Shown: in pieces, positions 2,550 through 23,505 of the stretch | Numbering within the stretch: the first letter of the stretch is position 1 | Layout: every line of letters starts with the position of its first letter | DNA from: a virus | IMG/VR virus record: IMGVR_UViG_3300023216_001153 | Coordinates: 1 to 44,486 of that record | Length of the DNA: 44,486 bases | Reading direction: 5' to 3' (one strand) | Program-made: the position numbers and the translations under genes | Notes under the pieces: model-generated | Databases searched by the model: none | What the model was told of the DNA's origin: nothing | What the model saw: only the letters and a program-made list of their open reading frames with translations

Positions 2550-3065
2550 ATGCAGAAGAAAGTATTAGGAGAGACAAGTTTAACATGGGGATTTTTACCA
2601 AAACTCTCTTTAGTTGAAAACGATATTATACACTTTCATTTTTTTAATGACTTGGCATTACTATCTTTAAAGAAGAAAGAACGCGATAAATATAATGATT
2701 TTGAACTTTCCTATCATCAGCATCATTCATGGATCATGGATTATATTAGGGATAAATTCAAATTAGAGGAACATAAAATTTTAATTACACAAGCTACTTA
2801 TGGATCCATTCATTTTTTTGGAGAATCATCCTTAAAACGAAATCACATAAATTCTTCTTCAGATTTTACAGTCATCTATTTGGTGCATGGTGCAGGTAAT
2901 CTTATTCTTGAATGGAAAAACCCACAAAACAAAGAATGCGACTGGACCATTCCTATGATACCAGGTAAATATGTTGTCTTCAGTGCTCATCTAAATTATT
3001 CCTTTATTCAGAATGAATCTAAAGACATAAGAACAATTATCACTTGGAACTGTCAGATTAAATGA
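2550..3065 (+). CDS. Divergent double-stranded beta-helix protein, first gene of oxygenase cassette
   Basis: The product has 171 residues. The C-terminal half reads like the core of an Fe/2OG oxygenase fold: RNH followed by SSSDF (H99, D105), a beta-hairpin with GAGNLILEW, then PMIPGKYVVFS, and a final strand with R161 (DIRTIITWN). The usual distal His position is unclear because the segment reads AHLNYSF, with H147 shifted and Tyr where His is expected. It may therefore bind metal differently or be inactive. It overlaps the next gene by 4 bp (ATGA) and leads the cassette. No clear RBS precedes the ATG. Assignment to the family rests on fold-like spacing and neighbours only. Confidence 0.5.
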   Translation: MQKKVLGETSLTWGFLPKLSLVENDIIHFHFFNDLALLSLKKKERDKYNDFELSYHQHHSWIMDYIRDKFKLEEHKILITQATYGSIHFFGESSLKRNHINSSSDFTVIYLVHGAGNLILEWKNPQNKECDWTIPMIPGKYVVFSAHLNYSFIQNESKDIRTIITWNCQIK

Positions 3066-3580
3066 AAAAAAATAATAAATATCCCTACGTTCATCAATTT
3101 AATTTGAAAAAAGAATTAAAAGATAAAAAAGAGGAAATAGTAAAAGACATTTTAAAAGACAGGAAGAGAGAAAAATATGATTATAACTTTCAAGTATTCA
3201 CCAAATACAATGATTATTTGTATGATTTATTTATTAAAAAAAGTAGAAAATTGTTAAATCCTTTTACGATTAAGGACCCTCAATTAAAAGTTTGGTGTTA
3301 TTTTACAGGATTGGGTAATCATATAAATGAAGACATCTGGCACAACCACACCCGGACTTCTAATATTAACTCTGTCCTTTATTTAGAAACCGTAAAGAAT
3401 CATGGAATTAAATTTAAAATAGGCGAAGAGTCTTGGTATGTAGAACCACAAAATTTTGACTTGTTAATTTTCCCCGGATTTTTAAATCATTTACCTATTA
3501 CTTCAAAGACTCAACAAAGAATCTCTTTAAATTTAGAATTAAAATGTAACGAAGCGGATAAGGATATTTTTGGAATATGA
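3062..3580 (+). CDS. Putative 2OG-Fe(II) oxygenase
   Basis: A 172-residue protein with a lysine-rich N-terminal 70 residues and a C-terminal double-stranded beta-helix core. Candidate iron ligands are H94 and H96 in WHNHTRTSN (H-x-H rather than H-x-D) and H143 in FPGFLNHLP. R153 in QRISLNLE is the likely 2-oxoglutarate salt-bridge residue. The arrangement matches the phage family of putative 2OG-Fe(II) oxygenases with an H-x-H pair. Family knowledge: these enzymes couple 2OG decarboxylation to hydroxylation of a substrate. The substrate here is unknown. It overlaps both neighbours by 4 bp, implying translational coupling. Confidence 0.7.
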   Translation: MKKNNKYPYVHQFNLKKELKDKKEEIVKDILKDRKREKYDYNFQVFTKYNDYLYDLFIKKSRKLLNPFTIKDPQLKVWCYFTGLGNHINEDIWHNHTRTSNINSVLYLETVKNHGIKFKIGEESWYVEPQNFDLLIFPGFLNHLPITSKTQQRISLNLELKCNEADKDIFGI

Positions 3581-4119
3581 GATGGAACTACTGGTCTTGG
3601 AAGAAATTTATATCTATGGAAAATATTAAAGAAATAAATAAAAAAATAAAAACACATTCGGTAGATAAAAAAGATGTACCTTCAAGCTCTAAAAAGACTT
3701 CTTCTGTTAAGTTTATTAAATATAATACTATTAAGAAATATTTAAATAATAGTTTAACAGATCTTTATGACTGTAATGAAAAACACTTTGGATCTCATCT
3801 TCATGAATTTCCAGAGGATACTCTATTATTCTATAATATTTATGACAAAGGAAATGAATATCAATGGCATGTTGATGCCAACGATGAAAATGATGACTAT
3901 GATATTAAATTTACAGTTATTATTAATTTGTCTGACACCAAATATGAGGGGGGAGAGTTTAAAATATGGTGTCTTGAAAAACCACAAACAGTTAGAGAAT
4001 TAAATAATCCAGGGGATATGATTATGCTTAGATCCTATCATTTACATAAAGTAACTCCTGTTATAAAAGGAACAAGAAAAAGTCTACTAATGTTTTTAAT
4101 GGGGCCTCCTCTACAATGA
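3577..4119 (+). CDS. Putative prolyl-4-hydroxylase-like 2OG-Fe(II) oxygenase
   Basis: This 180-residue protein has a textbook H-x-D...H...R/K layout. H98-V-D100 is in YQWHVDAND, followed by KFTVIINLSDTKYEGGEFKI, the PGDMIML strand, H157 in YHLHKVTPV, and R167 in GTRKSL. The spacing and the YEGGEF motif are those of P4Hc/PKHD-type hydroxylases. Expected reaction: hydroxylation using O2 and 2-oxoglutarate. The substrate cannot be read from sequence. The first ATG at 3577 overlaps the upstream stop (ATGA). A second in-frame Met at residue 14 (base 3616) is an alternative start. It is the third gene of the cassette. Confidence 0.82.
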   Translation: MRWNYWSWKKFISMENIKEINKKIKTHSVDKKDVPSSSKKTSSVKFIKYNTIKKYLNNSLTDLYDCNEKHFGSHLHEFPEDTLLFYNIYDKGNEYQWHVDANDENDDYDIKFTVIINLSDTKYEGGEFKIWCLEKPQTVRELNNPGDMIMLRSYHLHKVTPVIKGTRKSLLMFLMGPPLQ

Positions 4120-4775
4120 ATTTTAAAAGTTTATATTGGTACTTTACATCTGTATTAACCCCACGGTTTTGTGATGACGTAATTAAGTATGGGCTTCAGC
4201 AACAAGAACAACCAGCTTTAACGGGACGTATGGGTACACATAGGGATATTAAAAAAGACCCATTAACGAAAGAGGAAAAATTACAACTCAAACATAAAAG
4301 AAGTTCGGATGTTGTTTGGTTAGCCGAACCATGGCTTTATAAAGAAATTCATCCCTATATCCATATAGCCAATAAAAATGCTGGCTGGAATTTTCAATGG
4401 GACTTTACAGAGCCTTGCCAATTTACAAAATATAAACTTGATCAATATTACGATTGGCACTGTGATAGTTGGGCCGAGCCTTATAAAAATGACAAAATTA
4501 AAAATAAGAATCTGGACGGTAAAATTAGAAAGCTCTCGGTGACCTGCCAGTTAAGTGATGGCTCTGAATATAAGGGCGGAGAATTACAATTTGATTTTAG
4601 AAATTATGAACCTCATTTACGAGATGAAATTGAACATTGTCATGTTGTTAAAGAAATATTACCACGAGGATCGATTATAGTATTTCCTTCTGAAGTATGG
4701 CATCGGGTTAAACCTGTTACCAAAGGCGTAAGATATTCCTTGGTGATGTGGAATTTAGGACAACCCTTTAAATGA
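4116..4775 (+). CDS. PKHD-type 2OG-Fe(II) hydroxylase
   Basis: A 219-residue protein and one of the clearest cassette members. The N-terminal part (residues 1-100) resembles the helical cap of PKHD-type hydroxylases found in cyanophages. The core shows H115-C-D117 in YYDWHCDSW, LSVTCQLSDGSEYKGGEL, PRGSIIVFPS, H196 in VWHRVKPVTKG and R206 (VRYSLVMW). All three iron ligands and the 2OG-binding Arg are present, so it should be active. It has 4-bp overlaps with both neighbours. Related bacterial enzymes hydroxylate peptides or siderophore-linked substrates, but no substrate is implied here. Confidence 0.85.
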   Translation: MNFKSLYWYFTSVLTPRFCDDVIKYGLQQQEQPALTGRMGTHRDIKKDPLTKEEKLQLKHKRSSDVVWLAEPWLYKEIHPYIHIANKNAGWNFQWDFTEPCQFTKYKLDQYYDWHCDSWAEPYKNDKIKNKNLDGKIRKLSVTCQLSDGSEYKGGELQFDFRNYEPHLRDEIEHCHVVKEILPRGSIIVFPSEVWHRVKPVTKGVRYSLVMWNLGQPFK

Positions 4776-5380
4776 TAAAGCATCCTAAAAATTTTGGATA
4801 TACGATGACTCAACTTCCAAAAGATTTATATACTTCTTTGTTAAAGGAATGCAACCTTGCTCAAGAAAAGAATAAAGAATTAACTACTGCCATTTCTGGG
4901 ACGAATACCCCCAAGCATTATTTAATTAAGGATAATCTTGTCGCTTTAATTCAATTTGTGAAAAAAACTGTTGACGAATATGATAAAGCTTTTCCTTCTT
5001 TAGGGGATATAGCGGTTTTAACAAAGAATGTTCCTTTTTATATAGAAACCCCCTGGGTGAATTTTCAAAAAAAACATCAGTTTATTCCTAATCATTATCA
5101 CGTAGGTATTTATAGCTATACGATCTGGATGGTAATCCCTTATGACATTGAAGAAGAATTAAAAAATAGTAAGGGAGGTTTAGGGGGTCATGCTTCTTGT
5201 TACGAACTTACTTATATAAACAGTATAGGAACAATTAACCATGAGATTATGAAAATAGGTAGAAAAGACGAAGGGACTATGATATTATTTCCAGCTAAAA
5301 TGCATCATTGCGTTTATCCTTTTTACACCAGCGATGCAACTCGTATTTCAATATCTGGCAATGTTTTATTAAAAGGATGA
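4772..5380 (+). CDS. Putative 2OG-Fe(II) oxygenase, paralogue of the gene at 7223
   Basis: This is a 202-residue protein with an H-x-H iron site. H108 and H110 lie in FIPNHYHVG, the distal His is H178 or H179 in AKMHHCVYPF, and R191 lies in TRISISGN. The block NFQKKHQFIPNHYHVGIYS plus TIWMVIPYDIEEEL is closely matched by the protein at 7223-7867 (NYQKQNEFNPIHDHSGVYS, VIWMQIPYDVKEQ). The C-terminal VYPFYTSDATRISISGN is matched by VYPFYKCSKERISINGN. The two are clear paralogues separated by three other oxygenase genes. It starts in a 4-bp overlap with the previous stop. Confidence 0.78.
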   Translation: MIKHPKNFGYTMTQLPKDLYTSLLKECNLAQEKNKELTTAISGTNTPKHYLIKDNLVALIQFVKKTVDEYDKAFPSLGDIAVLTKNVPFYIETPWVNFQKKHQFIPNHYHVGIYSYTIWMVIPYDIEEELKNSKGGLGGHASCYELTYINSIGTINHEIMKIGRKDEGTMILFPAKMHHCVYPFYTSDATRISISGNVLLKG

Positions 5381-5381
5381 A

Positions 5382-6014
5382 ATGAAGATAGATAATTATT
5401 TTGGTTCTCCTCTATGGAGTGAAGAAAAGCCCGATTTTATAAAGTCAACAATTAAAGCTACGGATAAATATATTAAACAAGCTCGACAAGTAAATAAAGT
5501 AGCTATTAAATCCACAGGAGATTTTGGTTTATCTCACCATTCAAAACAACTCCTATCGGATCCGGCTTTTAAAGATTTAATAGATTACATTGGTAATAAA
5601 GCATGGTCTTTTTTAGATTGGCACGGTTTTGATATGAGTCATTATCAGACTATGATTTCACAAATGTGGGTGCAAGAGTTCGCTAAAAAAGGAGGAGGAC
5701 ACCATTCCTTACATGTTCACCCAAATGATCATGTCGCAGGCTTCTACTTTCTAAAGTGCAGTATGAAGACTTCTTTTCCTATTTTTCATGATCCAAGACC
5801 AGGGGCACAAATGACAAAATTACTTTTAAAAGATCATACGAAAATTACACCGGGAACAGATACTATACATCGTAGACCTACACCAGGCATGTTAATGTTA
5901 TTTAATGGGTATCTTCCCCATGAATTTTCATTGGACGCAGGTCATGAGCCTTTTAGATTCATTCATTTTAACTTACAAGCTGTTTTAAAAGGAATGGCTA
6001 AAGATGTCGTTTAA
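5382..6014 (+). CDS. Putative 2OG-Fe(II) oxygenase (H-x-H type)
   Basis: The 210-residue product carries HHSLHVHPNDHVAGFYFLKC, giving H111-V-H113 as candidate iron ligands. Next come the DPRPGAQM segment, PGMLMLFNGYLPHEF with H180 as distal ligand, and R192 in EPFRFIHFNLQA. This matches the family annotated in phages as putative 2OG-Fe(II) oxygenase with a conserved HP.(S/N) turn and PRPG loop. It starts 2 bp after the preceding stop and overlaps the next gene by 11 bp. The protein substrate or small-molecule target is unknown. The catalytic set looks complete. Confidence 0.8.
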   Translation: MKIDNYFGSPLWSEEKPDFIKSTIKATDKYIKQARQVNKVAIKSTGDFGLSHHSKQLLSDPAFKDLIDYIGNKAWSFLDWHGFDMSHYQTMISQMWVQEFAKKGGGHHSLHVHPNDHVAGFYFLKCSMKTSFPIFHDPRPGAQMTKLLLKDHTKITPGTDTIHRRPTPGMLMLFNGYLPHEFSLDAGHEPFRFIHFNLQAVLKGMAKDVV

Positions 6015-6663
6015 AAAAAATAAGTTTTGTATTATTAAAAAAGCCATTGAGGCTAACCTAGCGGAATTCATTTATAATTATTTTCTAATTAAACAGGAGG
6101 TAGCAAAAACACTGTTTAAAACCAAATGGATCTCTCCTTTTGAAACAATTCTAGGTACATTTGATGATAAGCAAGTACCAAATTCATATGCCCATTACGC
6201 GGACATTGCCATGGAGACTTTATTAATAAAGCTGCAACCATTAATGGAAAAACACACAGGCTTAAAGTTACAGCCAGCTTATTCCTATGCACGGCTTTAT
6301 AAAAAAAATAATATCCTGAAAAGACATAAAGACAGGTTTAGTTGTGAAGTCTCTACAACAATGTTTCTAGGAGGAGATCCTTGGGATATTTATTTAGAAT
6401 CTTCTGGTAAAAAAGGAATGAAAGGAATTAAGATTGATTTAAAACCTGGAGATATGATGGTTTACAGAGGATGTGAAGTAGAGCATTGGAGAAATAAATT
6501 TAAAGGTAAAGAGTGCGCACAAGGATTTTTACATTATAATGCTATAACCACCTCAGGAGCTAAAACAAATATCTTCGATGGAAGACCTCATGTCGGAATC
6601 CCTGGTGGATTCAAAATATTTTCGGATCCAGCTACATATGGTTATAAAAGAAGTATAAAATAA
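6004..6663 (+). CDS. Putative 2OG-Fe(II) oxygenase (H-x-D type)
   Basis: A 219-residue protein with YARLYKKNNILKRHKDR giving H108-K-D110. This is followed by CEVSTTMFLGGDPWDIYLE, LKPGDMMVYRGCEVEHWR with H161 as distal ligand, and a final strand CAQGFLHYNA. I recognise this RHxDR...DPWDIY...GCEVEHWR pattern from cyanophage and pelagiphage proteins annotated as oxygenases. The C-terminal 40 residues (from about 180) extend beyond the usual core. It is encoded with an 11-bp overlap onto the previous gene and ends directly at the next start. The substrate is unknown. Confidence 0.8.
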   Translation: MSFKKNKFCIIKKAIEANLAEFIYNYFLIKQEVAKTLFKTKWISPFETILGTFDDKQVPNSYAHYADIAMETLLIKLQPLMEKHTGLKLQPAYSYARLYKKNNILKRHKDRFSCEVSTTMFLGGDPWDIYLESSGKKGMKGIKIDLKPGDMMVYRGCEVEHWRNKFKGKECAQGFLHYNAITTSGAKTNIFDGRPHVGIPGGFKIFSDPATYGYKRSIK

Positions 6664-7221
6664 ATGGAAATCATTGAAACTTTTAAAACGCCTATCGCAA
6701 AATTTTATTTACAAGAAAATTTAAAACTTCTAATAGAGTTTGTAAATAAATTAAAGAAAGAAGGTAGACAACAAAGTAATGAAGGTGGTTTTCAAAGTGA
6801 AGACTTGGATTTAAATCTTAAAGAACTACGTAGCCTTTCAAAAAATATAAGTGTCTATGCTAATGAGTTTAAGAAAAAATTTTATTATAAGAGTGATATT
6901 AAAATAATAAATATGTGGATTAATGTTAATCAAAAAAATAATTATAACTTAGTCCATAATCATCCTTTCTCCAGTTTTTCTGGAGTTTTTTATATTCAAA
7001 CTCCCGCAAATTGTGGAAACATTGTTTTTCGTAATGATTCTAAGATTGAACTTTTTATGCCTGTAGAAAACTTTACTAATTATGGTCACTACAATTCGTT
7101 ATCATGGACACTGCCCGTAAAAGAAAATATACTTTATTTATTTCCTGCTTGGCTCACACATATAGTTAAATCTAATCAAAGTAATGAGGAAAGAATTTCG
7201 GTTTCTTTCAATATACGATAA
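6664..7221 (+). CDS. Putative 2OG-Fe(II) oxygenase (H-x-H type)
   Basis: This 185-residue protein begins MEIIETFKTPIAKF, a start typical of the phage putative 2OG-Fe(II) oxygenase family. Iron ligands are probably H98 and H100 in NLVHNHPFSSFSG and H166 in FPAWLTHIV. R177 (EERISVSFNI) is the 2OG-binding residue. The segment SGVFYIQTPANCGNIVF is the characteristic strand pair after the first ligands. It abuts the preceding stop codon and is followed one base later by the last cassette gene. Codon use is as AT-rich as its neighbours, so there is no sign of very recent transfer. Confidence 0.8.
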   Translation: MEIIETFKTPIAKFYLQENLKLLIEFVNKLKKEGRQQSNEGGFQSEDLDLNLKELRSLSKNISVYANEFKKKFYYKSDIKIINMWINVNQKNNYNLVHNHPFSSFSGVFYIQTPANCGNIVFRNDSKIELFMPVENFTNYGHYNSLSWTLPVKENILYLFPAWLTHIVKSNQSNEERISVSFNIR

Positions 7222-7222
7222 G

Positions 7223-7867
7223 ATGCCACAAAATAAAAACATACTAGAGATTAAAAAGGTTATTCCCCATGTGGGGGGTTGGTTAAAAGTAAAACTTTCT
7301 AAACCGACGATAGATAAACTATGGACTTATGCTAAAAAAGCCAAAGAAGACTATCGAGGAAATTTAGCTGGCAATATTTCTAAAGAGTTTAAAATGATTG
7401 ATGAGAACAATTGGTTCTTTGATAGTGTTCTACAAGATTTGATAGGGGCATATCAAAAAGATTTTTCAAATTTAGGTGGGACCTTTCTCACACATGATCA
7501 TAAATATATTTTGAATCAATGGTGGATCAATTATCAAAAACAAAACGAGTTTAATCCTATTCATGATCATTCTGGAGTATATTCTTTTGTTATTTGGATG
7601 CAGATTCCATATGATGTTAAAGAGCAACGGGACCTTCCTTTTGTTAAAGGTTCTAATTCCCCACGCGCCTCTGTTTTTGAATTTACTTACATAGATATTT
7701 TAGGACATCTTTGCCACGGCCCTTATGACGCCGCAGAAGGCTATATGTTATTTTTTCCCTCAAAATTAAAGCATCAAGTCTATCCCTTTTATAAGTGTTC
7801 TAAAGAAAGAATCAGTATTAATGGGAATATTTATTTGAATTCAGATGCTAAACTTATTCGTGAGTGA
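7223..7867 (+). CDS. Putative 2OG-Fe(II) oxygenase, paralogue of the gene at 4772
   Basis: I chose the ATG at 7223 because the frame-open region upstream (from 7184) lies inside the previous gene and adds a non-conserved stretch. The 214-residue product has H114-D-H116 in FNPIHDHSGVYS, distal H184 in KLKHQVYPFY and R196 in KERISINGN. It is plainly related to the protein at 4772-5380 across the whole catalytic half. It is the last gene of the nine-gene cassette. A 48-bp gap with a candidate promoter separates it from the next structural gene, so the cassette probably ends a transcription or translation unit here. Confidence 0.78.
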   Translation: MPQNKNILEIKKVIPHVGGWLKVKLSKPTIDKLWTYAKKAKEDYRGNLAGNISKEFKMIDENNWFFDSVLQDLIGAYQKDFSNLGGTFLTHDHKYILNQWWINYQKQNEFNPIHDHSGVYSFVIWMQIPYDVKEQRDLPFVKGSNSPRASVFEFTYIDILGHLCHGPYDAAEGYMLFFPSKLKHQVYPFYKCSKERISINGNIYLNSDAKLIRE

Positions 7868-7870
7868 AGG

Positions 7871-7897
7871 TTGATACAGCCACACATTTAGTATAAT
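7871..7897 (+). promoter_or_regulatory. Candidate sigma70-type promoter before the structural block
   Basis: TTGATA at 7871-7876 and a perfect TATAAT at 7892-7897, separated by 15 bp (short of the ideal 17). It lies in the only sizeable gap between the oxygenase cassette and the large tail gene at 7916. Inference from sequence only. Confidence 0.45.
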
Positions 7898-7915
7898 TTA
7901 AAATTTGGAGCTTTT

Positions 7916-10108
7916 ATGTTAGCAAAGGTACAATTAATCCCTGGATTCGACAAACAAGTAACCGAAACGGGCGCAGAAGGGCGTTGGGTCGGAGGAGATT
8001 ATATACGGTTTCGTTACGGTTTACCTGAAAAAATAGGGGGCTGGGAACAACTTGGAACTACAAGCCTTGTGGGAGTGGCAAGAGACCAGCACGCCTGGTT
8101 TGATTTAGCAGGAAATAGGTATGCTGCCATAGGCACCGACAAAATTTTATATGTTTATTACGAAGGAACTTTTTTCGATATTCATCCTTTAGAGACCTCT
8201 CGCCAACAAGCTGGAATGACTAGCTGTTTTACTACCACTTCATCATCTGCAGCTGTGACTGTTACCTGTACAGGTTCTCATTCTTTAGCTGTGGGAGATA
8301 TGGTTGTATTTTCATCGGTCAGTTTGATTCCCGGGACCAGTAGTTTTATTGCTGCAGATTTTGAAAAAACGTTTGAAGTACAAACTGTACCCACCACCAC
8401 TACCTTTACCATCACCATGGCAGCAAATGAAACTGGCACACAGTTCTCGACTACCGGCACCGCGACCCTTGATTTCTATTATGTGGTAGGGCCAGCTTTG
8501 CAACTTCCTGGATATGGATGGGGAACCGGACAATATAGTGGTACTGTTACTGCAACTACTACAACAATGAATAATGGCGGCAATTTGTTAGTTGCTGCTA
8601 CTTCAGTTACCCTTACATCTAGTGCTGCTTTTCCAGCCACAGGAACATTACTTATAGATTCAGAACTTATGACCTACACAGGAAATGATACGGGAACTGG
8701 CGTAATTTCAGGTTTAAGTCGAGGATCAGGAGGAACAAGTGACGTTGAACACACTGATGGAGTAACTGTTACAGACGCGGCCGATTATGTGGGATACGGC
8801 AGTGCATCCGCTTTTGGAGTTATTATTGATCCTGCTCAATGGCGATTGACGAATTTTGGACAAAAACTATTGGCTTTAATTTTTGATAGTGTAGCCGTTG
8901 AATGGGATCCTTCTGTTGGGGATGCCTTAAATACACGAGCCACTCTAATAACGGGGGCTCCGACTGCTTCGCGAGACATGTTGGTATCCACCTCCGATCG
9001 ACATTTATGTTTTTTTGGAACAGAGACTACGATTGGCACTACCACTACTCAAGACGATATGTTTATAAGATTCTCTGATCAGGAAGATATCAACACTTAT
9101 ACTCCTACTGCTATCAATACAGCTGGTACACAGCGAATTGCCGATGGTTCAAAAATTATTGGGACATTACGTGGTCGTAACGGTAATTATATCTGGACCG
9201 ATACGGCTATGTTTACAATGAGATTTATTGGTGCCCCTTTTACTTTTGGTTTTGAACAAGTGGGAACTAACTGTGGACTCATTAGTCAACATGCGGCTAT
9301 TGAAGTGGATGGTATTATTTACTGGATGTCTGAAGATAGTTTCTTTTATTTTGATGGTGCGTCTGTGAAAAAACTACCGTGCTTGGTTGAAGATTACGTG
9401 TTCGATAGTCTTAACAACGATGCGGAACTTATTATTTATGCTGGAGTTAATGATAGATTTAATGAAATTAGTTGGTTCTATCCTTCTGGATCTGCCACTA
9501 CCTGTGATAGGTCAGTAACTTATAACACCAGAGATTCACAAAATATTCCGGGAGGTGTGTGGGTAACAAATGATGCTACTTTAATAAAAAGAACAACATG
9601 GGTGGATCAAGGAGTATTTAATTCACCATACGCTACTGCTTATGACACTGGCGAAACTCCTACCCAAGGATCCATTTCTGGAATTGGTACGGGAGCCACC
9701 ACTTATTATTCACAAGAAACAGGAACAGATCAAGTTAAAAGTGGAGGAGCAACGAGTGCCATTGCGGCTAATATTGAATCTGGAGATTTTGATATTGATC
9801 AAAATGCGAATGTTACAGGAGACGGCGAATTTATATGCCGAATTAGTCGTTTTATACCCGATTTTAAAAATCAGGTTGGCGATGCTGAGGTTTCTATTTT
9901 ATTAAGAGATTTTCCTGCGGACGCGAGAGCCGCATCGGCTTCGGGACCATTGATTTCAGGACCTTTTACTGTTACAACGAGCACTACCTACGTTAGTTGT
10001 AGGGCACGGGGACGAGCAGCTTCTTTCAAGATTGCTAATACTGGAGCTGGTCAAACGTGGAGATTTGGAACGTTCCGTGCAGACATTCATGCAGGAGGCA
10101 GAAGATAA
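7916..10108 (+). CDS. Large tail or head-closure structural protein
   Basis: This 730-residue protein starts MLAKVQLIPGFDKQVTETGA and continues with GRWVGGDYIRFRYGLPEKIGGW. I know this N-terminus from marine and soil phage proteins annotated as packaged-DNA stabilisation (P22 gp10-like) or tail proteins. The body is beta-rich and Thr/Ser/Gly-rich, with YIWTDTAMFTMRFIG and CGLISQHAAIEVDG in the middle. These resemble propeller-like repeats in tail hub or nozzle proteins. The RBS GGAG lies 8 bp upstream of the ATG. It opens a run of tightly linked virion genes through TAATG junctions. The specific position in the virion is uncertain. Confidence 0.7.
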   Translation: MLAKVQLIPGFDKQVTETGAEGRWVGGDYIRFRYGLPEKIGGWEQLGTTSLVGVARDQHAWFDLAGNRYAAIGTDKILYVYYEGTFFDIHPLETSRQQAGMTSCFTTTSSSAAVTVTCTGSHSLAVGDMVVFSSVSLIPGTSSFIAADFEKTFEVQTVPTTTTFTITMAANETGTQFSTTGTATLDFYYVVGPALQLPGYGWGTGQYSGTVTATTTTMNNGGNLLVAATSVTLTSSAAFPATGTLLIDSELMTYTGNDTGTGVISGLSRGSGGTSDVEHTDGVTVTDAADYVGYGSASAFGVIIDPAQWRLTNFGQKLLALIFDSVAVEWDPSVGDALNTRATLITGAPTASRDMLVSTSDRHLCFFGTETTIGTTTTQDDMFIRFSDQEDINTYTPTAINTAGTQRIADGSKIIGTLRGRNGNYIWTDTAMFTMRFIGAPFTFGFEQVGTNCGLISQHAAIEVDGIIYWMSEDSFFYFDGASVKKLPCLVEDYVFDSLNNDAELIIYAGVNDRFNEISWFYPSGSATTCDRSVTYNTRDSQNIPGGVWVTNDATLIKRTTWVDQGVFNSPYATAYDTGETPTQGSISGIGTGATTYYSQETGTDQVKSGGATSAIAANIESGDFDIDQNANVTGDGEFICRISRFIPDFKNQVGDAEVSILLRDFPADARAASASGPLISGPFTVTTSTTYVSCRARGRAASFKIANTGAGQTWRFGTFRADIHAGGRR

Positions 10109-10743: not shown

Positions 10744-10961
10744 TGGACTATGTAGATATTAAAGGAGAGAAAGTTCCACGAATGAAAGTGGAATCCAAAA
10801 CCGTTATTACCAACATTAGAACTAAACATATCTATAAGGACGAGGCCGAAGTCAAAGCTGAAATATTAAAACAAAATGCCAGCCCAAAAGATATTCGGAG
10901 AGACATTAAAATTATAATCCCCAAAGGACTCGATGTATTTGGAAAGAAGCCTTTGAAATAA
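10743..10961 (+). CDS. Unknown small protein before glycosyltransferase, 72 aa
   Basis: A 72-residue charged protein (MDYVDIKGEKVPRMKVESKT...) with alternating Lys and Glu and a C-terminal IIIPKGLDVFGKKPLK. I recognise no family. It overlaps both neighbours by one base, stop to start. This places it in the same translational chain as the glycosyltransferase that follows. Confidence 0.6.
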   Translation: MDYVDIKGEKVPRMKVESKTVITNIRTKHIYKDEAEVKAEILKQNASPKDIRRDIKIIIPKGLDVFGKKPLK

Positions 10962-11902
10962 TGGATCCTTTAGGTGGCACAGAGTTACAAATGGCCGAAC
11001 TTAAGAAAAGGCTATCTGAAGATTATTTTAAAAAAATAAAAATTACTCTGTCTATTCCTGAAAAGGAACCTATCGACCGAGATCGAATCAATGTTCTATG
11101 GATGAAAAATTCCTACGATCAGCCTAACATTGCTCCTTGGTTCAGCCAACCCGAAAACCTAAGAAAGTATGACTGGTACATCTTCAATAGCCATTGGAAC
11201 TATGAAAAATTCAGATATCTTTACAAAATGCCTACTCATAAATGTAGCGTCATTAAAAATGCTTTACCTACTATTAAATGGAAAGAACGTAAGCCTTGGA
11301 AACTGGAAGACCCAGTTAAATTGATTCATACTTCTACCCCTTGGCGGGGCCTTAATGTTTTATTAGGCGCCATGGAATTGATCAAAGATCCCAAAATCAC
11401 TTTGGATGTTTATAGTTCTACCCAAATATACGGAGATCACTTTAAAGAAGACAATGACAAACGCTTTCAACCTATGTATGAAAAAATGGAAAAAATGTCC
11501 AATGTTAATTATATTGGATATAAACCTAATCTAGAAGTTATTGACGCGATGCAAGAAAGCAATATGTTTGTTTATCCGTCTATTTGGGAAGAAACATCCT
11601 GTATTTCTGCAGTCGAAGCTATGGCTGCGGGTAATGTAGCAGTCGTTACCAATTTTGGAGCCCTGTTTGAGACGTGTACCGACTATGCCTATTACCTTAA
11701 TTATGAAACCAGCATTCATACTCTTGCTAAGAAGTTTCAAGTCATGGTTGAGTATTTAGCAAAACATCTCCACGAGCCTGAGCTTTTAGATCATTTAACA
11801 GCCCAACAAAAATATTACCGTCATTTCTATAACTGGGATATGAGAGCAGGGGAATGGGAAAGTTTCTTTAAACAAATTTTAAAAATAAAAGGAGTCGCGT
11901 GA
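10961..11902 (+). CDS. Glycosyltransferase, family 4-like (GT-B)
   Basis: This 313-residue protein opens with DPLGGTELQMAELKKRL, the GGTE loop found near the start of GT4 enzymes. Further on are FNSHWNYEKF, CSVIKNALPTIKW (the INGV-like motif) and LIHTSTPWRGLNVLLGAMEL. The nucleotide-sugar motif is FVYPSIWEETSCISAVEAMAAG, with the paired acidic E-x7-E region. It is shorter at the N-terminus than cellular GT4 enzymes, so part of the acceptor domain may be reduced. It sits with a second glycosyltransferase in the virion block. Transfer of sugar to virion protein, to DNA or to host surface are all possible. Confidence 0.8.
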   Translation: MDPLGGTELQMAELKKRLSEDYFKKIKITLSIPEKEPIDRDRINVLWMKNSYDQPNIAPWFSQPENLRKYDWYIFNSHWNYEKFRYLYKMPTHKCSVIKNALPTIKWKERKPWKLEDPVKLIHTSTPWRGLNVLLGAMELIKDPKITLDVYSSTQIYGDHFKEDNDKRFQPMYEKMEKMSNVNYIGYKPNLEVIDAMQESNMFVYPSIWEETSCISAVEAMAAGNVAVVTNFGALFETCTDYAYYLNYETSIHTLAKKFQVMVEYLAKHLHEPELLDHLTAQQKYYRHFYNWDMRAGEWESFFKQILKIKGVA

Positions 11903-12747
11903 ATTATAAGATTAATGAAAAAAGTATTATTAATGAGAAAAATATTTTTGAACAAAACACCAATAAAGGCAATGACACTATTGAATGGGACAAAAAGGTA
12001 GAAAATCCTCCGGTTAAATTGTTCTTCACTTCACCATGCCACGGAGGGGTGGACATTCATTATATGAGAGCTACCCTTGAACTTCAGGCTCTATGCCAAC
12101 GGAACAAAATGCCTGTTACCTTTCATTTGCTTCAGTCATCCATTGTCACCCAGGGACGCAACCTGTGTGTGGGCGCTTTCCTTAAATCTGGATGTACCCA
12201 TATGCTCTTTGTTGACACTGATATTGAATTTGATGAAACTTCCTTATTAACTATGCTCCAAGCTGACAAAGACATTGTCTTAACTCCATATCCAATGAAG
12301 GTGGTAGACTGGGACAAAGCCAAAGACATCAGTAAACGATCCGGACGTCACATCAGTAAATGTGGATACTATTACCCAATGGCTTTTCCGGACCCTGAAA
12401 ACATTATCATTGAAAATGGAGTAACCGAAATTACGCGCGGACCTGCCGGTTTCATGCTTATTAAACGTCAGGTCTTTGAACGTATGGGTAAAGCTTACCC
12501 TGAGATGAAAATTAAACAACAGACCATGTTGAATCAGCAAATGCATGAAACAGAACACTTTTGGAATTTTTTTGACACGGATTTCAACAAAGAAAAGGGA
12601 ACGTTTAAAGGGGAAGACTTCGCTTTCTGTGAACGCTGGACTAAAATTGGCGGTAAGATTTATGCCAATGTCGATGCCTATATTACCCATCACGGAGACT
12701 ACAGTTATAAGGGTAGGTTTATTGACGAAGGCGCAAAAATTAAGTAA
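11899..12747 (+). CDS. Glycosyltransferase, GT-A/GT2-like
   Basis: A GTG at 11899 overlaps the previous stop (GTGA). The 282-residue product contains LFFTSPCHGGVDIHYMRA and QGRNLCVGAFLKSGCTHMLF. These are followed by the metal-binding DTDIEFD, TPYPMK and GEDFAFCERWTKIGGKIYA. The DxD motif and ED near the C-terminus fit a GT-A fold. Similar proteins are frequent in phages as a partner of another glycosyltransferase. The first 40 residues are charged and poorly conserved-looking, so a later start is possible. A 34-bp gap with a small AT hairpin follows. Confidence 0.75.
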   Translation: MNYKINEKSIINEKNIFEQNTNKGNDTIEWDKKVENPPVKLFFTSPCHGGVDIHYMRATLELQALCQRNKMPVTFHLLQSSIVTQGRNLCVGAFLKSGCTHMLFVDTDIEFDETSLLTMLQADKDIVLTPYPMKVVDWDKAKDISKRSGRHISKCGYYYPMAFPDPENIIIENGVTEITRGPAGFMLIKRQVFERMGKAYPEMKIKQQTMLNQQMHETEHFWNFFDTDFNKEKGTFKGEDFAFCERWTKIGGKIYANVDAYITHHGDYSYKGRFIDEGAKIK

Positions 12748-14697: not shown

Positions 14698-15593
14698 GTT
14701 CAGGAGGTGGAGGAAGTGGTGTTCCAGCGGACACAACTAACGTTCAAACAATCAGAGAAGCACCAGAGATCGAAGCAAGACGATTAGGTCTTATGGATGC
14801 AGCAACGGAACTGGCAAAGAAAAAAACCAGTCCGCCAGCATTCCAAATTGCACCTATGTCTGCAGCCGAACAACAAGGTTTAACTTTAGCAGGTCAAACC
14901 GGAGCGGGAGCTGGAGCGATCACCGATGCTTATGCGGGTGTTACTGCAGCGGGACAAAATCTTACCGGAGCCACGACGGCGGCCGGGCGACAATTCAGTG
15001 CGACCGATGTTCAAGCAGCAATGAATCCCTACATTCAAAATGTAGTCAATAGAATAGGGGAAAGTTATGCAGCCAAAGAGACAGATCTATCTAGTAGAGC
15101 TATTCAAGCTGGAGCGTTTGGTGGAGGACGTGAAGGTGTGGGTATTGCAGAACTTCAACGACAAAAAGCGGACGTGTTAGGAGGAGTTTACGGACAAGGT
15201 TATACGTCAGCATTAGGAGAGCTTCAGACTCAAAGAGGTCTTGAAGCACAAACAGCACTTCAGGCCGGAGCTGGTCGTTTACAAGGAGCACAGACCCGTT
15301 TGCAAGGGGCTCAACTACAACAAGCAGGCCAAGCGCAAGATATACAAAGTTTAATGGGTGCTGGTGGAGTTGAAAGAGGAATTGCACAAGCACAGCTCGA
15401 AGCGACACGACAAACAGGATTACAAACTATTCAAGAACCGTATCAACGGGTAGCGTTTGTGTCTGACATTCAGTCAGGCGTACCAAGCGCTTCACAACAA
15501 CGGTTACAGACAACTTATGCACCGCAACCAAGTCCGTTAGGTCAGGCGGTTGGAACAGGAATTGGCGCGTATGCAGCATTTGCGCCGAAATAA
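14694..15593 (+). CDS. Candidate DNA-ejection or internal virion protein, Ala/Gln-rich
   Basis: This 299-residue protein is very rich in Ala, Gly and Gln. Long helical stretches occupy residues 140-250 (for example LQGAQTRLQGAQLQQAGQAQ). It includes FSATDVQAAMNPYIQNVVNR and AFGGGREGVGIAELQRQKAD, a segment I know from marine phage structural proteins. Ala/Gln-rich helical proteins between the tail genes and very large C-terminal genes are typical of the ejection proteins of podoviruses. That role is inference. It starts in a 4-bp overlap with the GNAT-like gene. Confidence 0.6.
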   Translation: MSSGGGGSGVPADTTNVQTIREAPEIEARRLGLMDAATELAKKKTSPPAFQIAPMSAAEQQGLTLAGQTGAGAGAITDAYAGVTAAGQNLTGATTAAGRQFSATDVQAAMNPYIQNVVNRIGESYAAKETDLSSRAIQAGAFGGGREGVGIAELQRQKADVLGGVYGQGYTSALGELQTQRGLEAQTALQAGAGRLQGAQTRLQGAQLQQAGQAQDIQSLMGAGGVERGIAQAQLEATRQTGLQTIQEPYQRVAFVSDIQSGVPSASQQRLQTTYAPQPSPLGQAVGTGIGAYAAFAPK

Positions 15594-15602
15594 AGGTGAC
15601 AA

Positions 15603-17609
15603 ATGATCAACAAATTAAAACGAAAACTTTCTGTTAAAAAGCTACAAAGTGGTGGCATTGGTTTATTGCCTCCTCCTAATCAACAACTTATGTTACCCCC
15701 GGGTAGCAGTGGAAATATAGCAAGACCAATTATAGGTGCCGCTGGAACTGGGATGGGAACAATTCCTTCATCACCTTATACAATGAGAGGATTTAGCCAA
15801 GCAGCAATGTCTGCGTGGCCGAAACTTAAAGGTGTTGGAACTCTTGGACTAAATTCACCCTACGGAAGAGCGCTATGGCTAGCTTCTCTGGGAATTCCTT
15901 GGGTAGCTAATCAATCCAGAAAAGCAGCTGAAAAAATAGGAGAGACGGAAACTATCTCTGTTAATGTGAGTGGTATTCCAAGAGCTATTGATATTCCTGT
16001 AGAACCACCCGTAAAACAAAATATAGAACAACAGTCAGTTACTGATTTAAATACTGCTTTTCCAGGAATGAGTAATACTCAAATTATAGAACAAGCTAAT
16101 GAAGAATCAGGCATTGAGATTTCTCCGAATCAGGTTGACAAGGTAGTCAACCAGGTTAATGAAAATCAAATTGATAATCCTGATGCTCCTCCTAAATTGG
16201 ATACAACGATAGTGGCTGACGACGAAGGAGACGATGGAGGACCCATTGTGAGTGCAGAATTAAACGCAGCGATTGCAAACGATGATGATCAAAATAAAGA
16301 AGCGGATCGAGTGTATTGGGATAGCATTGCAGCTAAAGAAGGTTCAGGAAGATCAGAGTTGGCTCTATCCCTCAATCAAACTGTATCCGATATTCTAGGA
16401 CCAAAGGGATCAAAATCAAAGAACCTTCTTCTGTTACAACTGGCAGCAAACCTTATATCAGGAAGAACCGATCAGCCTGGATTCAAAGGCTTTTTGGATG
16501 TCTTAGGACAAGCAGGACAAGACGTTATTCCTATGGCTATATCTTTGAACAGAGCGCGGGAAGAAGATGAACTGGAAATTAAAAAAGCCTTAATTACAGC
16601 TCAAGGAGAAACAGGAACCCCATGGGAGGGGTGGGGAGGTCTCGTCAATTTTACGGACGCATCTGGTGTATTTCATACAGGTCTACCCTATCGTTACAAC
16701 AAGAATGATGGCGAAATGTATGCTTTTGTCACTGATGATGATGGTCGAAATGGAAGAAATATTTTGGTTCCTGCACCTGATTCTACAGTAGACTCTGCGG
16801 ATTCCTCAACGATTAATAACTATACCAATACTGTGGACTTACTGACGAATGCCTTGCATAACGTCAATGATGCTTTGGATATCTTCATTCCCCATCCAGA
16901 GTTGATAGGACAAAAAGGAACGGTTACGAGAACTTTTCGAAAAATGGGAGATATACTTAAACAATGGACTGGTAATTTGGATTATTCCACTTTGCTGGCT
17001 CAGGTTGATCAACAAGAAACCGAAGCTTTAGTTAATGCTGAAACGCAACGAGACAAGAAAGAGATTGACCAAGAAGAGTATCTAAATTTAATTAGTAATA
17101 TTACTAATTACTTCGATAGCATAGATAAAGATAAAAAAATAATGCAAGAAGGAGGCGCATTAGCCGTTCAAGCTAAATTAAGAACCATTCAATTGATGAC
17201 GAGTTATGCCCTGGCCAATATTTTAAAAAACAAGGATCGTCTGGCCGTTCAGGATATTAAAAGAGCGGAACAATTAACCAAGATATTTGGTATTACAGGC
17301 AGTCCAACTATGATTATTAATCAGTATATAGAACTAAAAAAACAATTAACGGGTGCCCTGGAAGCTAAATTCAGAAAAGGTACTTCTTTGGGAATAGGCC
17401 AAAATACTATCAAGGAATTAAAGAACGTTGCCTACGGTCAAACAGAGATCAATAAAAGTTTAGCAAGGAAAATTGATAATCTTCTAGCAAGCCCTAATTT
17501 TGATACCAAGGAAGGTATGGATCAACTTTTAGACGTTCTGAATTTTGGTGACATACAAGTGATTGGTGATGATCAAAAATTTGAAGAAAAAGGAAGACTA
17601 AACAGATGA
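15603..17609 (+). CDS. Large internal virion protein candidate, 668 aa
   Basis: The 668-residue product begins with a basic segment (MINKLKRKLSVKKLQSGGIG) carrying the same GGI motif as the gene at 12782. The region around residues 140-240 is acidic and low-complexity. Helical segments with many Gln and Lys follow to the end. An RBS (AAGGTGA) lies just upstream of the ATG. Its size, helical content and position beside the 986-residue gene fit the set of internal virion proteins that podoviruses eject with DNA. No peptidoglycan hydrolase motif was found. It overlaps the next gene by 4 bp. Confidence 0.6.
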   Translation: MINKLKRKLSVKKLQSGGIGLLPPPNQQLMLPPGSSGNIARPIIGAAGTGMGTIPSSPYTMRGFSQAAMSAWPKLKGVGTLGLNSPYGRALWLASLGIPWVANQSRKAAEKIGETETISVNVSGIPRAIDIPVEPPVKQNIEQQSVTDLNTAFPGMSNTQIIEQANEESGIEISPNQVDKVVNQVNENQIDNPDAPPKLDTTIVADDEGDDGGPIVSAELNAAIANDDDQNKEADRVYWDSIAAKEGSGRSELALSLNQTVSDILGPKGSKSKNLLLLQLAANLISGRTDQPGFKGFLDVLGQAGQDVIPMAISLNRAREEDELEIKKALITAQGETGTPWEGWGGLVNFTDASGVFHTGLPYRYNKNDGEMYAFVTDDDGRNGRNILVPAPDSTVDSADSSTINNYTNTVDLLTNALHNVNDALDIFIPHPELIGQKGTVTRTFRKMGDILKQWTGNLDYSTLLAQVDQQETEALVNAETQRDKKEIDQEEYLNLISNITNYFDSIDKDKKIMQEGGALAVQAKLRTIQLMTSYALANILKNKDRLAVQDIKRAEQLTKIFGITGSPTMIINQYIELKKQLTGALEAKFRKGTSLGIGQNTIKELKNVAYGQTEINKSLARKIDNLLASPNFDTKEGMDQLLDVLNFGDIQVIGDDQKFEEKGRLNR

Positions 17610-20771: not shown

Positions 20772-21452
20772 GTGAAGATCAACCACAAGTACGATTATAA
20801 AGACTACACTCGGACAACGGACCAGGGACGAAGAGTCTATCTCAATGGTAAAGAAAAATTACCCTCCGTTACAACTATCCTCAACAGAACCAAAGAAGAA
20901 TCGGCCGGTATTAAGGCTTGGAGACTAAGCAAAGGAGAAGCTGAAGCGAACAGGATCATGAAAGAAGCTGCTCAGCGAGGCTCAGAGATGCATGAAGCCC
21001 TCGAAGGGTATCTATACGGGCAAAAATTCGAGGCACCCACTCACGAAGCTCCTATAGCCCTTAAAATGGCTAATCTTATTATATCTAAAGGATTAATCTA
21101 TTTAGACGAGATATGGGGGGTTGAACAAACTTTGATCTATCCAGGAGAGTATGCAGGAGCATCCGATCTCATTGGTCTTTATAAACAGACCCCTACCATT
21201 TTAGATTTTAAACAAGCCAACAAACCTAAAAGGGAAGAATGGATTGAGGACTACTATATTCAGCTTGCAGCGTATATCTGCGCCCATGAAAAAGAATATG
21301 GAGAAATTAAGAAGGGTCAAATTCTTGTGGCAGTTAAAAATTTAACTTTTCAGGAGTTTGAAATATCCGGTAATCGGCTACTGGAGTACAAAGATAAATG
21401 GTGGAAACGCGTAGAAAAATTCAAAACCACTCTCGAACAACCTCTCCCATAG
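20772..21452 (+). CDS. PD-(D/E)XK exonuclease, RecB/Cas4-like
   Basis: A GTG start at 20772 follows a purine-rich RBS (GAGAAGG). The 226-residue protein has SVTTILNRT near the N-terminus and RGSEMHEALEGYL (the His motif of RecB-like nucleases). Next are EYAGASDLIGLY and TILDFKQANKP (the D...DFK catalytic strand), then IEDYYIQLAAYICAHEKEYG. This order matches the nuclease family used by many marine phages in recombination or DNA end-processing. Motif residues appear intact. Its 3' end overlaps the opposing helicase gene by 32 bp. It opens the replication block. Confidence 0.8.
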   Translation: MKINHKYDYKDYTRTTDQGRRVYLNGKEKLPSVTTILNRTKEESAGIKAWRLSKGEAEANRIMKEAAQRGSEMHEALEGYLYGQKFEAPTHEAPIALKMANLIISKGLIYLDEIWGVEQTLIYPGEYAGASDLIGLYKQTPTILDFKQANKPKREEWIEDYYIQLAAYICAHEKEYGEIKKGQILVAVKNLTFQEFEISGNRLLEYKDKWWKRVEKFKTTLEQPLP

Positions 21453-22845
21453 TCTTCGCCGAAAGCTTAAATTTAGTTTTCAAAGCCTCCAGAATCTTTT
21501 CATCAACCGTCTTGGGCGCTACCAAATCAATATACGTCACTTTCTTTTCTTGGCCAATTCGGTGAGACCGATCTTCCGATTGAACCCTATGCTCTGCATT
21601 ATAACTATTAGAATAATAAACCACGATTGAAGCTGCGGTTAAAGTAATGCCGAGACCTCCTGTTGCAGGATTAGCCACAAAGAATCTACACTTTGGATCA
21701 TTTTGAAAACGTTCAATAGCTTCCGTTCTTTTCTCCGAGGAAACAGCTCCATAAAAATCAACTGTAGAATCCACCCCGAATTTTTCTCCAAGAGTCTTGG
21801 TAATTTGTTCTACGTTATAAATATATGTCGCCCATATAATAATTTTGGCATCTGTATCTTCACATATTTCTAATAAAGTATCTAATCGTTTATTAGCTAC
21901 CGGCTCAATACTATTCTCCCTAGTTTTAAAAAATCCACAAGCTACTTGATGTAAACGCAAAATTTCAGTTATTACATTCGTTACAGTTAGTTCTTGTCCA
22001 CGCAAAGTCGCTCGGGCTTCTGTACGAATATCATCATAAATTCTAGTTTGCTCATCGGTAAACTCAATATTTCGTCTGACATAAATTTTCTCCGGCAGAT
22101 CCAAACATTCCTTTTTGGTTTTGCGATAAGCAAACTTCTTCAGCTTCATTTCAATCTCCGCTAAATTAGTAAATCCTACCGGGACACTGATCTGACGATT
22201 GCCAACCCAAATAGTTTCGAAAAAACAATATCGATTTCGAAATGCTACAATGGAATTAAAACCGAGATGATTAGGATTTAAAAAACTACATTGAGTATAA
22301 AGATCCAAAGGATTTTTAGGAGTCGGAAATCCTGACAGAATTCGCCTATAGTTAGAATACTTTCTTAATTTAATAATATTCTTGGTTCGCTTGGCGTTGT
22401 AATTTTTAACACAGGTAGATTCATCCACTGCAATCAAATTAATATGACGCTTACAAAATTCTTCCGCCCAAAAAGATCCTTTATCATTGGAAAAAGCCTC
22501 TACATTCATTACAAAAATCTTTAATTTAATAGAAGGTTTTTCAAAGAACTCACGAAGTTTCGCTTCTCTTAATGTGCTTTTCCACAGCAACATATCGTAT
22601 TCAATATTCAAATGTTTTGGAATTTCTGTATGGTACCATACCGTATATACAGATTTAGGAGCTATAATTAAGGCACCGTTAATAAGGTTTTGGCAACGTA
22701 AAGCTCCAAGATTATCGAGTAAAACCTTTGTTTTCCCAGTACCCATTTCCATGAATAAAGCAAAACTTTGTTTATCCCAAGACAGAGTTAAAGCCTCTTT
22801 TTGATGGGCATAAGGCTCAGTTTTAAAATTATATTTCGTTACCAT
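21421..22845 (-). CDS. SNF2-type superfamily 2 helicase/ATPase
   Basis: I chose the ATG at 22845, preceded by GGGAG, over an upstream Met because the first recognisable motif, EPYAHQKEALTLSW, begins at residue 10. The 474-residue product has Walker A (FMEMGTGKTK, residues 32-40), DEST as the DExx box (141-144), RILSGFPTPKNPLDLY, and the C-terminal motifs TGGLGITLTAASIVVYYSNS plus EDRSHRIGQ. These are SNF2-family helicase motifs. It is the only long minus-strand gene in the window. It is convergent with the exonuclease and divergent from the gene at 22912. Family roles include remodelling of DNA-protein complexes, branch migration and replication restart. Confidence 0.9.
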   Translation of the reverse strand: MVTKYNFKTEPYAHQKEALTLSWDKQSFALFMEMGTGKTKVLLDNLGALRCQNLINGALIIAPKSVYTVWYHTEIPKHLNIEYDMLLWKSTLREAKLREFFEKPSIKLKIFVMNVEAFSNDKGSFWAEEFCKRHINLIAVDESTCVKNYNAKRTKNIIKLRKYSNYRRILSGFPTPKNPLDLYTQCSFLNPNHLGFNSIVAFRNRYCFFETIWVGNRQISVPVGFTNLAEIEMKLKKFAYRKTKKECLDLPEKIYVRRNIEFTDEQTRIYDDIRTEARATLRGQELTVTNVITEILRLHQVACGFFKTRENSIEPVANKRLDTLLEICEDTDAKIIIWATYIYNVEQITKTLGEKFGVDSTVDFYGAVSSEKRTEAIERFQNDPKCRFFVANPATGGLGITLTAASIVVYYSNSYNAEHRVQSEDRSHRIGQEKKVTYIDLVAPKTVDEKILEALKTKFKLSAKTMGEVVREWF

Positions 22846-22865
22846 CTCCCACGAAGATATTATGC

Positions 22866-22893
22866 TTGACTTTAAAATGCAATAGTTTATTTT
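22866..22893 (+). promoter_or_regulatory. Candidate sigma70-type promoter for the replication genes
   Basis: TTGACT at 22866-22871 and TATTTT at 22888-22893 with a 16-bp spacer. It is located between the divergent helicase gene and the gene at 22912. The surrounding ATGCTTGAC(A/T)TTA(A/T)AATG is shared with the site at 31312. Confidence 0.5.
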
Positions 22894-22911
22894 ATTTATT
22901 GGAGGTCGATT

Positions 22912-23505
22912 ATGGCAATAGACATACAAAAAGTGTCTGAAGCTTCATTTATAAAAGCGACAGATGCACAAGTCAAAAAGATCTCAGTGAAGTGCACAGA
23001 ACTTCAGGAAAAAGAACAAGAAGTCGCGAATATCGAAGAACGATTAAAGAAAGTAAAAAAAGACGCCTTGTTCCTTTCTGAGGAAACAATTCCAAATCTG
23101 ATGCAAGAAGCTGGGGTTACCAGTCTTAATCTTTCCGACGGTACGTCGGTTACTGTGGCTCCTTTCTATGGTGCTAGAATTTCTAGCGATCGTAAAGAGG
23201 AAGCGTTTCAATGGTTGCGAGCAAATAAGTTTGCAGACTTGATTCGTAACAACGTGGGAGTTTCTTTCACGGCAGGCGACGATGTAAAGGCTCAACAAGT
23301 TCTGGAGCTTTTAAAGAAGGAAGGACATAGACCCGTTCAAAAACAAGAAGTGAACGCCATGCAACTTAAGCAGTGGGCACGGGAACAAATCGAAAAGGGC
23401 GTAATAGTACCTGTTGATTTGTTTAGCGTCTATGTAACTAATAGAACTAAACTCAAACAAAAGGCAACGTACGATGGCAAACGGACAAAGAACAACGCGC
23501 GTTAA
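22912..23505 (+). CDS. Coiled-coil protein of the replication block
   Basis: A 197-residue protein. Residues 25-70 form a likely coiled coil (QEKEQEVANIEERLKKVKKD), followed by TIPNLMQEAGVTSLNLSDGT, FQWLRANKFADLIRN and a C-terminal Lys-rich end. Similar proteins sit next to DNA polymerase and primase genes in marine podoviruses, but I do not know a tested function. The RBS GGAGG is 6 bp upstream of ATG. It overlaps the next gene by 32 bp. It could be a cofactor or DNA-binding accessory of replication. Confidence 0.65.
   Translation: MAIDIQKVSEASFIKATDAQVKKISVKCTELQEKEQEVANIEERLKKVKKDALFLSEETIPNLMQEAGVTSLNLSDGTSVTVAPFYGARISSDRKEEAFQWLRANKFADLIRNNVGVSFTAGDDVKAQQVLELLKKEGHRPVQKQEVNAMQLKQWAREQIEKGVIVPVDLFSVYVTNRTKLKQKATYDGKRTKNNAR

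Follow-up and report, generated by a model that had tools for sequence, protein, structure and literature searches.

Why should a phage carry nine consecutive oxygenase-like genes directly behind its fibre genes? The question is raised by the virus record IMGVR_UViG_3300023216_001153 of IMG/VR, analysed over its whole length of 44,486 nucleotides and called here the window. In this 44.5-kb record, possibly a fragment, nine co-directional and nearly gapless open reading frames (ORFs) fill positions 2550-7867 of the + strand. Eight of them are assigned by their iron-binding triad and by profile matches to the 2-oxoglutarate (2OG)-Fe(II) oxygenase superfamily. The first one, denominated leader, is predicted to have the oxygenase fold without the iron site. 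Arrays of this sort were known before, because oxygenase clusters of pelagiphages and cyanophages have been published and the cyanophages S-CREM1 and Syn10 host runs of about nine. What this analysis adds is an architecture that is fixed and headed by an iron-less leader, a correction to the identity of a gene known as ferrochelatase, and the swapping of genes within slots. We read the block, with about even confidence, as a swappable protein-tailoring array, in which the oxygenases would modify the adjacent fibre proteins and the leader would be a non-catalytic partner.

The DNA polymerase and the terminase of the window find their best hits in Pelagibacter phage HTVC023P (60% and 63% identity, respectively), and the window is therefore a fragment of an HTVC023P-type pelagiphage, as defined by core replication and packaging genes. 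The hosts of the pelagiphage type carrying the array are SAR11 ocean bacteria. PMC9599517 describes HTVC023P-type phages as widespread and counts them among the most abundant pelagiphages.

The nine genes of the array

The first-pass annotation of the window had described nine consecutive, tightly packed short genes, and their coordinates were confirmed. At four junctions the genes overlap by 4 bases (ATGA). At the others there is a gap of 1 base, an overlap of 11 bases, neither gap nor overlap (0 bases), and an apparent overlap of 38 bases, which becomes a 1-base gap if the last gene starts at the ATG at 7223. In the alignment of the nine proteins, as in that annotation, all the eight genes of 3062-7867 encode an HxD or HxH pair followed by a distal His, and seven also an Arg downstream of it, 6004-6663 being without Arg at that place. 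PHROG 61, 81 or 2954 is matched by all eight, the weakest match being that of 3062 (E 1e-7). PF13640 or PF13759 is matched above cut-off by six, and 3062 and 6004 have no Pfam match above cut-off. The oxygenase identity proposed for the members is borne out by Pfam, NCBIfam and PHROG profiles.

The leader (2550-3065) is followed by an oxygenase-like gene (3062-3580, HNH...H...R, phrog_81), which sits in a swappable slot. Two putative oxygenases are of the PF13640 type, 3577-4119 (HVD...H...R; PF13640 E 3e-13, phrog_61 E 3e-18) and 4116-4775 (HCD...H...R; PF13640 E 1.5e-13, phrog_61 E 2e-36), the latter a common middle member found in a 139-member cluster. Four are of the PF13759 type. These are 4772-5380 (HYH...H...R; PF13759 E 2.3e-8, phrog_81 E 5e-22), 5382-6014 (HVH...H...R; PF13759 E 8e-11; TIGR02466 E 8e-15, below cut-off), another common middle member with a 104-member cluster, 6664-7221 (HNH...H...R; PF13759 E 4e-22; TIGR02466 E 9e-29, above cut-off) and 7184-7867 (HDH...H...R; PF13759 E 1.7e-8, phrog_81 E 1.6e-28), the start of which is probably at 7223. 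Between 5382-6014 and 6664-7221 lies 6004-6663 (HKD...H; phrog_2954 E 7e-47), discussed below. The other proteins share 11-18% identity with the first one; the members are therefore not recent duplicates, in line with the strong divergence noted at first pass. Promoter-like sites exceed those of shuffled sequences and are spread over both strands of this AT-rich region, and therefore no transcription unit is claimed.

The leader gene

The first-pass annotation left 2550-3065 outside the family. The gene is a member by its match to phrog_81 (E 4e-4), by an iterative profile search in which it is homologous to PF13759 types, and by its predicted fold; the search and the fold rule out its classification as an unrelated hypothetical gene. 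Leader orthologues form a tight group in marine viral contigs, which includes gp64 of HTVC023P. The triad is intact in none of 132 aligned orthologues, versus 584 of 591 other oxygenase ORFs. The first His is replaced mostly by Leu or Arg, the distal His by Tyr in 124 and the Arg by Asn in 120 of the 132.

An AlphaFold (AF2) model of the leader, built on 50 orthologues, is confident (predicted local distance difference test, pLDDT, 87.4). It corresponds to a double-stranded beta-helix (DSBH) resembling 3bvc (E 1e-6) and 2rg4 (E 3e-6), and the structural comparison (VIA) gave a Z of 15.7 and a root mean square deviation of about 3 over 162 aligned residues. AlkB is among the closest folds. The fold matches also include, at rank 34, a viral protein, the N-terminal domain of Vaccinia C16; this is PHD-like and binds a host hydroxylase, and, coming from an unrelated virus, is taken only as a lead to the way in which an iron-less member might work. 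The ratio of nonsynonymous to synonymous substitution rates (dN/dS) of the leader family has a median of 0.12 over 144 non-independent pairs, which denotes purifying selection. The leader is thus filed not as an oxygenase but as a conserved homologue with a predicted oxygenase fold, lacking the iron site and presumably non-catalytic.

In one relative (L033), the iron-less leader is directly preceded by a leader-like oxygenase of the PF13759 type that is intact (1458-2012). The pair offers a plausible picture of the leader ancestor. Among 84,980 species genomes scanned, the leader was found in one, on a 59.5-kb contig of the Pelagibacteraceae single-cell genome AG-422-I02 (QCMS01000007.1, L259), where it is accompanied by an apparent short array. 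The contig most simply, and probably, derives from an infecting phage, and would give a natural host link. No leader orthologue was found by profile search in the array-carrying myoviruses S-CREM1, Syn10, HTVC008M and Mosig.

The so-called ferrochelatase of PHROG 2954

The gene 6004-6663 is called ferrochelatase in PHROGs, and the PHROG name alone says so: no ferrochelatase profile matches it in Pfam (at E 1) or in NCBIfam (at E 10). Residues His108, Asp110 and His161 do not vary among the 45 relatives compared. The AF2 model (pLDDT 85.8) is a DSBH of the prolyl-hydroxylase type, and its top Foldseek match is the prolyl-4-hydroxylase (P4H) of P. putida (E 7e-9). The structural comparison gave a VIA Z of 16.0 over 161 residues. 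Prolyl hydroxylases match the model over residues 1-203, as a beta-helix and not as two Rossmann-type domains. The invariant triad, the P4H fold and the missing profile match speak strongly against a ferrochelatase (HemH), and 6004-6663 is predicted to be a 2OG-Fe(II) oxygenase of prolyl-hydroxylase fold. The beta-helix expected at first pass is predicted, accordingly, for the two least obvious members of the array, this one and the leader. A search of solved structures with two sequence profiles returned nothing useful.

The name appears wrong for PHROG 3531 as well as for PHROG 2954. More cautious is the existing record of phage 023Pt_psg01, which reads "putative ferrochelatase / putative Fe(II) dependent oxygenate superfamily protein". 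PMC9599517 interprets the phage ferrochelatase as haem-related, and PMC11561400 treats phrog2954 as a seasonally enriched metabolic gene and an ecological marker. Since phrog_2954 has a predicted oxygenase fold and matches no ferrochelatase model, both the haem reading and the seasonal marker very likely rest on a wrong name.

Constant ends, changing middle

Array homologues occur together widely in other phages, as the first-pass annotation required of a true cassette. Only known duplicates were removed from the contigs, with no further dereplication, and the counts of runs and loci that follow are hence not counts of independent events. The leader family, used as query, retrieved 80 loci; the leader heads its run in every one of them, and a gene encoding a small Trp-rich protein is directly upstream in 65 of the 68 complete on that side. 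An independent fetch with the 6004 type gave 58 runs complete at the 5' end; 44 begin with the leader, and 42 of these have the Trp-rich gene upstream. All sets pooled, every one of 151 runs begins with the leader, which is never duplicated. In 94 of the 96 loci where this could be tested, an ORF with at least 18% Gly directly precedes the Trp-rich gene, a composition found in about 10% of ORFs of similar size generally; the placement behind fibre genes, pointed out at first pass, is therefore a conserved one. Complete runs have 1-9 members, mostly 4-5. The 6004 type is present in 70 of 88 complete runs and is the final gene in 56. The order is fixed: Gly-rich ORF, Trp-rich gene, leader, oxygenases and, usually last, the 6004 type.

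The nine genes of the window make the longest run sampled of the HTVC023P type, the sole other run of nine being on a contig that matches the query proteins of the window at 100% identity. The size of the block, which had been regarded as unusual, is less so than it seemed: in HTVC023P-type phages a run of 4-8 is nothing out of the ordinary, and cyanophages reach about nine.

The middle of the array behaves differently from its ends. The window and its nearest relative (L010) share 83-97% protein identity in common neighbours, yet the gene following the leader is 3062-3580 in the former and a different oxygenase, 27% identical, in the latter. The replacement is exact, gene for gene, its borders being the start and stop overlaps on either side. 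Clustering at 45% identity gives 57 groups of middle genes, 5 of leaders and 1 of the 6004 type. Array content differs in 104 of 136 pairs whose leaders are 85-99.5% identical. The leader and the 6004 type are near-constant, while one middle gene takes the place of another, a pattern that agrees with an earlier suggestion that the block is a library of variable modifiers. The seven array genes comparable with L010 have dN/dS of 0.12-0.38.

Genes flanking the array

Upstream of the leader, on the same strand, are a Gly-rich fibre-type protein (1050-1982; PF21722 Gly_rich_2, E 6.5e-13), a candidate substrate, and the small Trp-rich protein (1984-2505; phrog_7759, E 4e-24), a candidate substrate too or a fibre-associated protein. 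Trp makes up 5.2% of the array-linked homologues of the latter. Downstream, 7916-10108 (+ strand) encodes a virion structural protein (phrog_3287, E 1.6e-85). Of the two glycosyltransferases placed further on by the first-pass annotation, 10961-11902 is a clear one (PF00534, E 1.5e-15), while for 11899-12747 (phrog_1574) the call is weak. The pair seems conserved in HTVC023P (gp77-gp78) and lies about 3 kb from the array, with structural genes between. Nothing ties it to the oxygenases, and a surface-glycan target is without specific support.

Elsewhere in the window, a DNA helicase gene (21421-22929; phrog_62, E 3e-115) is on the minus strand of a genome otherwise plus-stranded, and a phosphoadenosine phosphosulfate reductase-like gene (27372-28244; phrog_424, E 1e-43) is located between the helicase and the DNA polymerase.

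Arrays in other phages

Oxygenase clusters of the HTVC023P lineage and large oxygenase sets of cyanophages are reported in PMC9599517, PMC9602691 and PMC9964418. Among the closest known systems is the HTVC023P cluster gp64-gp67, similar to that of the window in lineage, gene kinds and place; gp64 is the leader orthologue, and gp65-67 are a short array, so that the cluster has four members versus nine in the window. PMC9599517 (Wittmers et al. 2022) describes the oxygenases as nearby "although not adjacent", takes the ferrochelatase at face value and, in the portion available, contains no mention of an iron-less leader. The literature searched, to which subscription journals are mostly external so that an earlier notice may exist, holds no description of the iron-less leader, of the fixed order behind the fibre pair, of slot swapping or of the oxygenase nature of phrog_2954.

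Syn10 and S-CREM1 (Kyanoviridae) resemble the window: their Gly-rich fibre genes are followed by about nine oxygenase-type genes in a row, and the phrog_2954 member stands at one end. These cyanophages differ from the window in viral family and host, in the presence of JmjC_2 and DUF6445 members and of halogenases, and in that no leader orthologue was found. In S-CREM1 nine consecutive genes are annotated as 2OG oxygenase or JmjC. In Syn10 two Gly_rich_2 proteins are followed by a small gene, two Trp halogenases and about ten genes, the last of which is phrog_2954; most of the genes following the halogenases match oxygenase or JmjC profiles. The two adjacent tryptophan-halogenase genes (L258, 1697-4802) have the Gly-rich fibre genes on one side and the oxygenase/JmjC array on the other. 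The small gene next to them is not homologous to the Trp-rich gene by profile, and encodes a different small protein. A Syn10 halogenase, VirX1, has reportedly been characterised, its native substrate being unknown. SAR11-type loci may feature halogenases as well, and in those that do, the halogenase genes adjoin or interrupt the oxygenases; a flavin-dependent tryptophan halogenase (PF04820, E 2.5e-109) lies inside one such array (L013, 7372-8883). HTVC008M and Mosig host oxygenase runs of five and six.

Some cyanophage array genes with oxygenase profile matches carry other names, as "minor coat protein" (phrog_1644, overlapping DUF6445 and PF13640) and "DNA endonuclease V" (phrog_274); examples are 15043-15654 and 18595-19386 in L257, and 7892-8674 and 11050-11667 in L096. 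Judging from the profiles, these names are probably wrong too. Cyanophage S-SCSM1, with 24 2OG-Fe(II) oxygenase genes, is similar to the window in that these genes are many, diverse and of the same Pfam families; its authors read the genes as host-metabolism genes (PMC9602691).

What the array may do

In the reading that we favour, the eight prolyl-hydroxylase-like and TIGR02466-like oxygenases would hydroxylate side chains of fibre proteins stepwise, during virion assembly, the targets being the Gly-rich fibre, the Trp-rich protein, or both; in some relatives a flavin halogenase would join the same array. Because the leader has kept the oxygenase fold and lost the iron site, it should act without catalysis, and may hold the substrate or pair with active enzymes as a docking or specificity partner. 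Since middle genes are exchanged one for one between near-constant ends, the modification pattern could shift quickly between close relatives. The reading is suggested by the concurrence of dissimilar hydroxylase-like enzymes, a location in the structural block next to the same fibre pair in more than one viral family, the halogenases and the fast exchange. The folds closest to the modelled members include those of protein hydroxylases (P. putida P4H, PHD2). The prolyl-4-hydroxylases, among which PBCV-1 vCPH, act on proteins and share fold and iron triad with array members, with no sequence-level match of the array profiles to solved structures.

Several observations weigh against fibre modification. 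Homologues of the Trp-rich protein have no oxygenase in the fetched flank at 48 of 79 loci; the protein therefore does not require modification. With leader distance taken into account, a permutation test gave no correlation of array content with Gly-rich fibre sequence (partial r 0.01, P 0.55), and the co-variation that raw pair counts had suggested (72% versus 58% identity) vanished under the same correction. A weak tracking of the Trp-rich protein over all pairs (r -0.22, P 0.002) is absent among close pairs. A tolerant insertion site alone could explain the conserved position next to fibre genes, and the folds of seven of the nine members are assigned from profiles and motifs. We infer the substrate, virion fibre proteins; enzymatic activity, leader role and benefit to the phage similarly go beyond gene content and fold.

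The tolerant site can be taken further, as other readings can. An unlikely one, the first to be weighed, makes the oxygenases host-metabolism genes, acting on small molecules or drawing down 2-oxoglutarate and so altering the nitrogen or energy metabolism of the infected cell. It has been published for cyanophages (PMC3037559), PHROGs classes the array families as auxiliary metabolic genes, and infection by HTVC027P raises host iron and central carbon genes (PMC12753301). Consuming one co-substrate, however, needs no nine dissimilar enzymes, a conserved iron-less member fits poorly, and in podoviruses and myoviruses the array is in the structural block behind fibre genes, away from metabolic genes.

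In a reading slightly less probable again, the enzymes would modify proteins of the host, such as ribosomal proteins or EF-Tu, or its surface, such as the outer envelope, and so favour infection or exclude other phages. P. putida P4H, the closest fold to the 6004 type, has been solved in complex with EF-Tu, and cyanophage arrays include JmjC_2 proteins, a family known for ribosomal-protein hydroxylation. Yet fast one-for-one replacement of members is unexpected for conserved host targets, and the constant fibre-gene neighbourhood speaks against this reading too.

That the array is a neutral or selfish hotspot, where oxygenase genes accumulate as frequent passengers and turn over because the site between structural genes tolerates them, we consider improbable. 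The turnover among close pairs and the variable run size would fit, but the dN/dS values of the array genes and of the leader family, as well as the near-constant order, would not, and the examined inserts are no random genes but oxygenases or halogenases. Modification or repair of DNA by TET/AlkB-like enzymes and a glycosyltransferase is very improbable. AlkB is among the closest folds to the leader, a glycosyltransferase lies downstream, and a repair role was once suggested for cyanophage oxygenases (PMC3037559); but no TET/JBP or AlkB model of Pfam, NCBIfam or PHROGs is matched by any array member, the array is away from replication genes, and the AlkB-like member is precisely the one without iron site. 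Finally, a haem or iron unit, in which the 6004-6663 product would be a ferrochelatase supplying iron chemistry to the neighbouring oxygenases, follows the PHROGs annotation and the reading in PMC9599517 and PMC11561400, but can practically be dismissed on the profile, model and triad data given above.

The correction of phrog_2954 touches a probable misannotation that has been used as an ecological marker (PMC11561400), and a conserved iron-less oxygenase homologue is revealed that always heads the array. Fibre modification turns a vague story of auxiliary metabolism into a directly testable one, namely +16 Da or halogen marks on two named virion proteins. More tentatively, as a possibility short of a probable one, the array may be a modular line, in which a dead oxygenase leader recruits changing hydroxylases, and in some lineages halogenases, onto a receptor-binding fibre. 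If this is true, close relatives would differ in the chemistry of the fibre tip and not only in its sequence, and phages would have a new route to diversify receptor binding or to escape recognition.

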